Source: a virus
DNA length: 47,713 bases
Virus record (IMG/VR): IMGVR_UViG_3300047557_000960
Location: 1 to 47,713 of that record
Reading direction: 5' to 3' (one strand)
Shown here piece after piece: positions 10,505 to 17,679 of this stretch. How positions within the stretch are numbered: the first letter of the stretch is position 1; each line of letters starts with the position of its first letter. The translations under genes and the position numbers were made by a program. The notes beneath the pieces were generated by a model, which made no database searches, was not told the DNA's origin, and was given only the letters and a program-made list of their open reading frames with translations.

Positions 10505-10577
10505 CAGTCAGAACAGGAATCGAACCTGTATTTGTCACAATAATTTGTTTAGCGTTTACCAATTTCGCCATCTGACT
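10505..10577 (-). tRNA. tRNA-like gene with abnormal anticodon arm
   Basis: Minus strand: acceptor AGTCAGA/TCTGACT (seven perfect pairs), D arm GCG...GGTAAACGC and a perfect T arm ACAGG, TTCGATT, CCTGT. The total length of 73 is right, but the 17 bases between D arm and variable loop (starting AAACAAATTATTG) do not form an anticodon stem. The identity cannot be assigned. Confidence 0.55.
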
Positions 10578-10659
10578 ATATTCGTGGTAAGTCACGACCT
10601 ACATATCCCTGATTTTTAGCTAGCATTTCAGCTCAGGTATTTGTTACACTGTATTTTTG
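10578..10659. other. Spacer between tRNA genes with hairpins
   Basis: Contains CGTGGTAAGTCACG (4-bp stem, near 10583-10596) and, on the minus strand, CCTGA...TCAGG enclosing AGCT...AGCT. It is probably tRNA precursor spacer; no known RNA is recognised. Confidence 0.3.
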
Positions 10660-10733
10660 TAGTCAAGACAGGACTTGAACCTGTAACCTAGATAGTATAA
10701 GTATCTTGCGCTAACCAATTGCGCCACCTGACT
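10660..10733 (-). tRNA. tRNA-Ile (anticodon UAU)
   Basis: A full cloverleaf: acceptor AGTCAGG/CTTGACT (one G-U), D arm GCGC...GCGC, anticodon stem AGATA/TATCT with loop CTTATAC (anticodon UAU at 10699-10697, U33 present), T arm ACAGG, TTCAAGT, CCTGT, discriminator A. CCA is not encoded. It reads AUA, a frequent codon in this AT-rich phage that hosts usually decode with a modified CAU tRNA, so a translation-boosting role is plausible. Confidence 0.85.
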
Positions 10734-15782: not shown

Positions 15783-15977
15783 TTAGTTATTAGTCATATT
15801 TTTTAAATGAATTTTAGGAAGAACTTCAAATTTAAAGTTCCAAAGATGCCATAGTTTTTTAATGTTACCTTGGTTTAAAAGTTCCTGCGCTCTGTCTAAA
15901 TTGCAAAGTAGATAGTCATCGTCAAAAGTTAGAATTTTAAAAATCCTTTCGTCTGTTTTAATTGTGTTAGGTTCCAT
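15783..15977 (-). CDS. Hypothetical protein (64 aa)
   Basis: A small protein with a helical centre (DDDYLLCNLDRAQELLNQGN). The leader AAAACTTTAAACTATG matches the repeated early leader. No family is recognised. Confidence 0.65.
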   Translation of the reverse strand: MEPNTIKTDERIFKILTFDDDYLLCNLDRAQELLNQGNIKKLWHLWNFKFEVLPKIHLKNMTNN

Positions 15978-15988
15978 AGTTTAAAGTT

Positions 15989-16120
15989 TTATTTTGTTAA
16001 AGTAATAGGCGTTTGGTTTACGTCTTTTGCTAATTGGTTATCCACTGAAGAGCCGATAAAATATAGCGTAATTAATACGGCTACTAAGATAATTGCGTTT
16101 GTTACTTGTTGAGGTTTCAT
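15989..16120 (-). CDS. One-helix membrane protein, first gene after the ribozyme (43 aa)
   Basis: Minus-strand frame from ATG at 16120 to TAA at 15989. MKPQQVTNA is followed by a single hydrophobic helix, IILVAVLITLYFIG, and a polar tail. It is the first gene of the leftward early operon; its ATG lies 21 bases after the 3' end of the hammerhead ribozyme. The leader ACCCTTTAAAAAATTAAACTATG belongs to the conserved early-leader group. Function unknown. Confidence 0.65.
   Translation of the reverse strand: MKPQQVTNAIILVAVLITLYFIGSSVDNQLAKDVNQTPITLTK
16038..16046 (+). promoter_or_regulatory. DnaA-box-like site
   Basis: TTATCCACT matches the DnaA box TTATCCACA at eight of nine bases. It lies inside the small membrane-protein gene beside the putative origin region. 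A single near-match could be chance. Confidence 0.25.
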
Positions 16121-16141: not shown

Positions 16142-16194
16142 ACTTGTTTCGTGCTTTTGCACTCATCAGTTACGATACACATCGTAATACAAGT
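16142..16194 (-). ncRNA. Hammerhead ribozyme, type III
   Basis: On the minus strand every core element is present in order. Stem III 5' strand ACUUGU (16194-16189) is followed by cleavage base A (16188; triplet GUA). Stem I is UUACGAU (16187-16181), loop GUGU, AUCGUAA. Then come core CUGAUGA (16169-16163), stem II GUGC, loop AAAA, GCAC, core GAAA (16150-16147), and the stem III 3' strand ending CAAGU (16142). Stems I, II and III have 7, 4 and 6 uninterrupted pairs. Stem III carries the open ends, so it is type III. The family cleaves itself after the H of NUH, here between 16188 and 16187. It lies in the 5' leader of the early operon. Confidence 0.92.
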
Positions 16195-16357
16195 TACTTG
16201 CCTTGCTACGTATCTTCACAAGGTACTTACGTTTCGGCTATGTGTCCATAAAGGCGCTTACTAAGTCAGAACATATTGCGTAGGTCGTTCCGTGTTCACC
16301 TATCAAGCTTTGGAAAGGGACTAAGTAGCTTAGTGAGGCTAGGTATTTCCGATTTGA
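16195..16357 (-). ncRNA. Predicted structured leader RNA upstream of the ribozyme
   Basis: Between the promoter at 16363-16393 and the ribozyme lie about 160 bases without a gene but with many pairings on the minus strand: hairpin ACUAAG-CUA-CUUAGU (16334-16320), UAUG-GACA-CAUA (16250-16239), and two interleaved pairings that can form pseudoknots. These are UAGGU/ACCUA with GAACA/UGUUC (16302-16269), and ACGUA/UACGU with CCUUG/CAAGG (16232-16201). I match it to no known RNA family. Cleavage by the ribozyme would free it as an RNA of about 170 nt. Confidence 0.55.
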
Positions 16358-16362
16358 TAATG

Positions 16363-16393
16363 CAAAGATGCGACGGCAAAAAACAATTTCCAA
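16363..16393 (-). promoter_or_regulatory. Near-consensus host promoter for the leader RNA and early operon
   Basis: Minus strand: TTG (16393-16391), 20 bases, CATCTTTG (16370-16363), one mismatch from TAnnTTTG. The predicted start is near 16357, just upstream of the structured leader. Confidence 0.55.
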
Positions 16394-16658
16394 ATTTTTT
16401 CAATACTTATTTTCTATAGCAATTATAGATAAAATTTATAATGGCAATCAAAGGCAATAGAATCAAGTATTTTAATACGGCAAAATATTTAAAAATAATT
16501 TTCAGATAGGCAAAAATAATTTGAATATAGGTGTTATATTAAAGAAAAAGATAATATCAAAGGGAGAAAAAAAACAATACAAAGTAAGTAATAATCAATA
16601 GCACCAATGGTTACAGACAATTTGCCTATACAAAAAACGCAATATACTATATATATAA

Positions 16659-16688
16659 GTGGGTAATTGTGGGAGTATGTGGGTAATT
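16659..16688 (+). repeat. Three GTGGG repeats at 10-base spacing
   Basis: GTGGGTAATT, GTGGGAGTAT and GTGGGTAATT follow one another without a gap, placing GTGGG on the same face of the helix three times. An inverted copy, ACCTACCCACTT, occurs at 16921-16932. This is iteron-like and may bind the RepL-like protein (inference). Confidence 0.7.
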
Positions 16689-16822
16689 AATTAATAGGGT
16701 AAAAAGAGAACGGAGGCTATCCCCTCCTTTTACTCCTTTCCTCCCAAAAAAATATACAGCTATAATGAAAAATAAATTTCCCCTACTCAAGTAAAAAGTA
16801 TTTACCAACATATGCAAGTAAG

Positions 16823-16869
16823 AGACCTAAAGTAAAGCTTTAGATATAGTATATAGTAGACCTAAAGTA
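16823..16869 (+). repeat. 12-base direct repeat AGACCTAAAGTA
   Basis: Exact copies at 16823-16834 and 16858-16869, 35 bases apart, in the putative origin region. Confidence 0.7.
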
Positions 16870-17079
16870 GTACTTCAAGTAGCCAATACAATGAGAGTAA
16901 AAAAATATTCATATATCAGTACCTACCCACTTGAGAGGAGCGAGTTCCCCTAGCGTGAGGGTACCCCTATGTATAGTATATAACCCCAACAACACACTAT
17001 ATCCCAGATTTATATGCTTATGCGTATAAATAGCCAATGTTTATAAGTATTATATGTATTTACGTATAGCCATAAGTTC

Positions 17080-17094
17080 GGCCTTCGAGAGGCC
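17080..17094 (+). other. GC-rich hairpin in the divergent region
   Basis: GGCCT, loop TCGAG, AGGCC: a 5-bp stem standing out in AT-rich DNA. There is no T tract, so it is not a clear terminator; it could be an origin or operator structure. Confidence 0.4.
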
Positions 17095-17207
17095 TCACTA
17101 CTTGGTTAATTATACTGTATTATATAGGGTGTATCTTATTATATAAGAAGGAAGGTGTTATAACTCTATGGTTATCAATAAGTGTAGTATTGTTGAAAAG
17201 ATATATT

Positions 17208-17237
17208 TTGTATTCTCCTAGAATACTCTTACCTTTG
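17208..17237 (+). promoter_or_regulatory. Bacteroidota-type promoter giving a leaderless RepL-like mRNA
   Basis: TTG at 17208-17210, a 19-base spacer, TACCTTTG at 17230-17237, then ATG at 17242. The usual start lies about five bases past TTTG, which coincides with the start codon, so the mRNA should have little or no leader. Confidence 0.8.
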
Positions 17238-17241
17238 TATT

Positions 17242-17679
17242 ATGACGATAAACAAACAAAAAGAAATTACGCCTCTTAATGGTTTAAGGAAGGTTATAAC
17301 TAAGAAGGTAGTTAACCAATTAATGGATCCTAAGACAGGGGAAGTATTTGAGGTGCTCCAAGCAGGGGAGGAGAAGGTAATAGATTCCTTACCTTTTGTA
17401 AAGGTATACTATGAGATGATCAATTTTATGTTAAGGAATAAATGCCAGGCGACCATAAAATTAATCTTATATATTATGAACGACTTGGAATATAAAGATA
17501 GTTACGTATATTTGCGCAGTACTGAGGTTTGTAAGGATTTAGGATGGAAGACTAAGGGTCCTTTCTATAAGGCCGTAAAGGGGCTAATAGAGGCCAATGT
17601 GATCAAGCGTACGGAGATAGTTAACTTGTACTATGTAAATCCTAATATGGTTTTTAATGGTAATAGGATAAAGAAGTAG
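17242..17679 (+). CDS. RepL-like initiator or regulator with winged helix
   Basis: A 145-residue protein. An N-terminal strand pair (KVVNQLMDPKTGEVFEVLQ) precedes a winged helix at about 60-130 (ATIKLILYIMNDLEY, then EVCKDLGWKTKGPFYKAVKGLIEANVIKR), and the C-terminus has YYVNPNMVFNGNR, the typical RepL ending. RepL proteins start rolling-circle-independent plasmid replication. In phages such proteins may start replication or control transcription. It is the first rightward gene, next to the repeat-rich region, under a host promoter with no leader. A phage-type box directly follows its stop. Confidence 0.75.
   Translation: MTINKQKEITPLNGLRKVITKKVVNQLMDPKTGEVFEVLQAGEEKVIDSLPFVKVYYEMINFMLRNKCQATIKLILYIMNDLEYKDSYVYLRSTEVCKDLGWKTKGPFYKAVKGLIEANVIKRTEIVNLYYVNPNMVFNGNRIKK

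Follow-up and report, generated by a model that had tools for sequence, protein, structure and literature searches.

The early mRNA of phage T7 is processed by RNase III, which makes intercistronic cuts and leaves structured ends with 5'-phosphate and 3'-OH groups. At the locus described here, the cut would be made by RNA catalysis rather than by a protein enzyme, with 5'-OH and 2',3'-cyclic phosphate as the predicted termini. Hammerhead ribozymes are already known in phages: the relevant passages of Perreault et al. 2011 (PMC3088659) report cleavage of native polycistronic RNA by tandem phage hammerheads, both in vitro and in E. coli, and propose that hammerheads flanking single genes divide long transcripts into mRNAs of one gene each. 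These passages list ardA among the neighbours, much as an anti-restriction gene lies beside a hammerhead in one viral contig of our set (L237), but they stress type II and pseudoknot tertiary contacts; the uniform type III form with stems of 7 and 4 bp, the adjoining hairpin and the range in Patescibacteria that we found do not appear in them. Theta ribozymes of gut phages (PMC10879173) are likewise self-cleaving elements of Caudoviricetes with mostly Bacteroidota hosts, but have an HDV-like fold, lie beside tRNA genes and were proposed to trim tRNA 3' ends. The locus studied here, in a virus record of 47,713 nucleotides (IMG/VR IMGVR_UViG_3300047557_000960; "the window" below), adds one more type III copy to the known phage hammerheads.

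A first-pass annotation of the window had described a complete hammerhead of type III on the minus strand (stems of 7, 4 and 6 bp), and direct reading, a script search and the match to a covariance model (R1, see below) all bore this out. Direct reading also recovered the entire invariant core (C3U4G5A6N7G8A9 and G12A13A14) and the cleavable NUH triplet GUA before stem I. Stem III is open, stems I and II are closed by loops, and the 53-mer, folded by itself, had exactly the hammerhead structure as its minimum free energy state (-13.0 kcal/mol). Our coordinates for the predicted cut agree with those given earlier, as does the position of the 3' end, 21 nt ahead of the ATG at 16120 on the same strand. 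No second type III hammerhead was found in the window by script search. By all sequence and structure tests applied, this is a real and sensibly placed hammerhead, which very probably cuts itself; its cleavage and function are inferred.

Features of the ribozyme locus in the window, in the direction of transcription
Feature	Positions	Strand	Basis
Bacteroidota-type promoter: -33 TTTG (16394-16391), 20-nt spacer, -7 box CATCTTTG (16370-16363)	16363..16394	-	sequence and conservation
Non-coding 5' leader, about 163-165 nt, start approximate	16195..16357	-	homology break, no ORF, GC
Weak hairpin CCUUGU/GCAAGG, 11-nt loop, 6 nt upstream of the ribozyme	16201..16223	-	z = -0.5
Type III hammerhead ribozyme, complete	16142..16194	-	direct reading, script, R1 69.8 bits, fold
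Stem III, 6 bp, ACTTGT/ACAAGT	16194-16189/16147-16142	-	
Pair A15.1-U16.1	16147/16189	-	
NUH triplet GUA, with H17 = A16188	16190-16188	-	
Predicted cleavage site A17 (16188)/U1.1 (16187), triplet GUA	16187..16188	-	inferred by homology to the hammerhead consensus
Stem I and loop 1 (6 bp + UGUGUA, or 7 bp + GUGU)	16170..16187	-	fold; loop common to family
Strands of the 7-bp stem I, TTACGAT/ATCGTAA, around loop GTGT	16187-16181/16176-16170	-	
Core CUGAUGA (DNA: CTGATGA)	16169-16163	-	
Stem II, 4 bp, AAAA tetraloop	16151..16162	-	script and family alignment
Strands of stem II, GTGC/GCAC	16162-16159/16154-16151	-	
Core GAA	16150-16148	-	
First early gene, 43-aa hydrophobic peptide MKPQQVTNAI...	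15989..16120	-	conserved in relatives

At the gathering threshold, Rfam 15 reported no hammerhead family in the whole window, and in a targeted search with RF00008 (Hammerhead_3) the ribozyme scored 20.8 bits (E 0.0016), below the cut-off of 48.5. Rfam scans of window and leader by gathering threshold and by E-value returned only tRNAs and one chance hit; the lax scan of the leader gave a single chance hit and no hammerhead. We built an independent covariance model, R1, on 80 distinct hammerheads taken from other viral contigs, with the window excluded. R1 scored the window ribozyme at 69.8 bits with E = 5e-20 (E-values are rough, owing to a short calibration). None of the 13 loci with clear relatives reached gathering for any Rfam family. 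Since these unmistakable relatives are Rfam-silent as well, the silence reflects a coverage gap for hammerheads with U-GUGU-R and RAAA loops. The window copy resembles Hammerhead_3 in its open stem III, its CUGAUGA...GAAA core, its A15.1-U16.1 and G10.1-C11.1 pairs and the monomeric cis cleavage expected of it, but scores below the cut-off and belongs to a loop family outside the Rfam models.

The extent of this family emerged from two scans of viral contigs. One used the core pattern alone, with loops unspecified; the matches listed included many full hammerheads, 25 type III motifs were among them, and about 10 of these motifs resembled the window copy, sharing a 7-bp stem I, a GUGU loop (once GAGU), a 4-bp stem II and an AAAA, GAAA or AAGA loop. 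The other, with a specific pattern, yielded at least 119 viral stretches of the same loop and stem family. Among the 126 matches listed from it, all seven stem I pairs were formed in 123, and position 17 was C in 108 and A, as in the window, in 14. Of the stem cells of 80 distinct homologues, 94.7% were paired, and both sides had changed in 444 cells, compared with 137 in shuffles and at most 67 with the partner slid; covariation was strong in all three stems. While GUGU in loop 1 was fixed by the search pattern, the U preceding it was not, and this U was invariant across the family although absent from the pattern. The window loops match the recurrent pair U-GUGU-R and RAAA, as a contact between loops 1 and 2 would require. 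An exact search for the window stem II in other viral contigs gave no match, and no named phage carrying the family was found by blastn, a weak tool for such short RNAs. The window ribozyme belongs to a phage family that is abundant and has loop 1 U-GUGU-R and loop 2 RAAA.

Members of this family sit between genes in sense orientation on the coding strand. Among 135 homologues, the distance from the 3' end to the ATG clusters at 22-24 nt, the upstream stop codon usually lies 20-60 nt before the ribozyme, and the ribozyme falls inside an ORF of at least 80 aa in only 8. The window copy shares this placement, being sense-oriented with its 3' end within the range of about 20-30 nt before a start codon. 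A coding gene precedes most members, and the neighbours vary (HNH endonuclease, ATPase, gamma-glutamyl cyclotransferase, anti-restriction protein and many unknowns). Immediately 5' of the ribozyme, a hairpin with z < -2 was found in 64% of viral members versus 23-26% of other gaps in the same contigs, and hairpin and ribozyme were separated by 0 nt in 57 of 76 viral members; the 48 nt downstream folded strongly in 4% of members. In the 48 nt upstream (L031-L319), the abutting hairpin often read GGGGGC-UUCG-GCCCCC or GUGUCUUUAAAGACAC. It is frequent yet not universal and so not strictly defining, and because the ribozyme follows it directly, it is not a terminator with a U-tract. Apparent H-type pseudoknots with an A-rich third loop replace the hairpin directly before the ribozyme in L263, L267, L279, L293, L300, L302, L308, L314, L316, L319, L162, L208 and L215; family-wide, the pseudoknot test was mildly above shuffles (25% vs 16%). 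In the simplest reading, the abutting hairpin would shield the 3' end left by cleavage and stem I would form the new 5' end. Series of two or more hammerheads, most of them preceding a separate gene each, occurred in L172, L261, L210, L188, L208, L043, L311 and L277.

Searching 84,980 species genomes for the same pattern returned 57 stretches, nearly all of the named ones from Patescibacteria. Of 380 genomes sampled from the phylum of L281 (Candidatus Giovannonibacteria), R1 matched 30 at E <= 1e-6, the seed genome included. From the phylum of L291 (Henriciella; Pseudomonadota) it matched 1 of 299, which was the seed itself, leaving 0 of 298 sampled Pseudomonadota genomes. In five long-contig regions of the Patescibacteria sample (one contig of 792 kb), the hammerheads lay beside cellular genes, including those for dTDP-rhamnose synthesis and an ion channel, and up to nine clustered hammerheads occurred in one Patescibacteria genome (G009). 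Hosts are named after the record titles, and most of the genomes are MAGs, in which single cases may be contamination; contamination is unlikely as the cause of the consistent 8%. The family is frequent in Patescibacteria, at about 8% of sampled species, and among the papers searched none mentioning hammerheads in this group was found. The first-pass annotation called such a copy unusual; a rare, isolated case is not supported, given the at least 119 viral stretches, the same start-codon distance and the occurrence in Patescibacteria.

The window terminase matched 106 phage records, mostly of Flavobacterium and Cellulophaga, in line with the earlier assignment to a Bacteroidota phage. Placement in the early leader also held, as the ribozyme lies on the transcript strand behind a conserved Bacteroidota-type promoter and ahead of the first gene. 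The promoter block is kept in L008 and L017, two relatives in which the -7 box is a perfect TATGTTTG, and elsewhere in the window the strict promoter consensus was found 7 times versus 1.3 expected. On the plus strand, a RepL-like protein (17242-17679) is probably made from a leaderless mRNA, because a perfect promoter (17207-17245; TTTG, 19 nt, TACCTTTG) stops 4 nt short of its ATG. The early and RepL-side transcription units diverge, and about 700 nt between them (16500-17240) contain no long ORFs. Near-identical initiation regions of the type CTTTAAAACTTTAAACTATG, at 15977, 15763, 14646 and 13269 on the minus strand, precede several early genes and contain no Shine-Dalgarno sequence. The window also holds three tRNA-like genes (2594-2664 and 10505-10733, minus strand), two of which (2594-2664 and 10505-10577) are poorly typed, either having an unclear anticodon or not being called by ARAGORN.

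The close IMG/VR relatives L006, L008, L017 and L018 keep the promoter (to ~16350) and the first gene (from ~16138), with at least one ORF and no hammerhead in between. Of the contigs compared, this phage alone has the segment 16139-16350, and the leader is not conserved in the closest phages; because these lack both ribozyme and leader, the ribozyme is dispensable. A candidate decayed hammerhead at the equivalent place in L008 (hairpin ACGAU...AUCGU) was rejected, its alignment not being significant (p = 0.14). Unlike most family members, the window ribozyme has no upstream cistron. No strong hairpin abuts its 5' end; the weak hairpin upstream (z = -0.5) is possibly a poor counterpart of the strong one in other members. 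An H-type pseudoknot upstream, from two interleaved 5-bp pairings (ACGUA/UACGU and CCUUG/CAAGG), was discarded, as one connecting loop would have only 1-2 nt.

On balance, we consider it fairly probable that the window ribozyme is a genuine type III hammerhead, acting in cis and belonging to a widely distributed phage family, and that its most likely use is protein-free mRNA end formation, with an effect like that of RNase III on T7 early transcripts. The early transcript would cleave itself once, in the leader, after A16188. The 5' product would be a leader RNA of ~165-170 nt, consisting mostly of the non-coding leader and ending in a 2',3'-cyclic phosphate, and the 3' product an early mRNA with a 5'-OH, the stem I hairpin flush at its start and a 67-nt 5'-UTR. 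Such a cut would separate upstream RNA from the downstream cistron and give the latter a structured 5' end lacking the triphosphate or monophosphate used by 5'-end-dependent decay, and may stabilise it. In most members, both RNA ends created by cleavage would be structured, one by the hairpin and the other by stem I. The more than 100 similar copies in phages and some Patescibacteria, just before genes, probably serve in mRNA trimming without a protein enzyme. More tentatively, the hammerhead and its abutting hairpin (in some an H-type pseudoknot) may be a standard protein-free module for mRNA end formation in many uncultured phages and on Patescibacteria chromosomes beside cellular operons such as rhamnose synthesis, leaving a structured upstream 3' end and a flush downstream 5' hairpin; the window copy would then be a stripped-down version in a phage leader. 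Against end formation as the role stand competition for stem III, absence of the ribozyme from the closest phages, the missing upstream cistron and strong hairpin, and the GUA triplet, which is less common in the family.

A chance resemblance to a hammerhead can be dismissed for practical purposes. Many windows may have been scanned and the Rfam gathering search was negative, but the E-value of 5e-20 came from an independent model, and loops, strand and place are all correct. Even looser stems (at least 4, 3 and 4 pairs) have a chance expectation of 0.008 per window, and 60 Mb of simulated Markov sequence contained zero hammerheads with stems of at least 6, 4 and 6 pairs. How the locus is used is a separate matter. 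The main job might be maturation of the upstream leader into a non-coding RNA of ~165 nt whose 3' end is defined and which acts on its own, for example as a regulator or decoy; the mRNA 5' end would then be incidental. The leader lies between the conserved promoter and the ribozyme, has no upstream cistron to be separated, and its lack of any ORF above 22 codons, which also rejects a hidden gene, is accompanied by a GC content of 44% versus 35% for the window. We nevertheless regard this role as unlikely: the leader folds no better than shuffles (z = +1.1), which rejects it as a structured RNA, it has no homologue in any locus searched and no Rfam match, and most family members have a coding gene upstream.

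The leader could instead bear on cleavage itself. In the modelled leader (start 16352), stems I and II were stable, and stem III had a probability of 0.2-0.5 versus 0.96 in isolation, since GCAAG, immediately upstream, offers its 5' strand another pairing partner. With this alternative GCAAG/CUUGU helix and a duplicated CAAGUAAC flanking the ribozyme on both sides, cleavage might be tuned by translation or transcript state. Such a switch seems improbable to us, as it is suggested by thermodynamic folding of a leader that has no homologues. Equally doubtful is that the ribozyme was acquired recently and neutrally, for instance by recombination from a phage with a gene-hammerhead-gene cassette, and cleaves without a selected role. 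The other ORFs at the same spot in the nearest relatives, which lack the ribozyme, and the deviating GC of the insert would fit such an origin, but three perfect stems and the kept 21-nt distance to the start codon suggest maintenance. Of these readings we retain mRNA end formation as the preferred one.

The recurrent architecture and host range of the family are of more interest than the single locus. The family is common, missed by current Rfam thresholds, poorly catalogued and frequent in Patescibacteria. The window copy, clean and short, provides a flavobacterial phage locus on which to test it. The reason for hammerheads in phages and bacteria has been a question ever since their discovery there, and this family offers a testable answer, because defined RNA ends follow from the layout that its members share (structure, ribozyme, ~22 nt, start codon).
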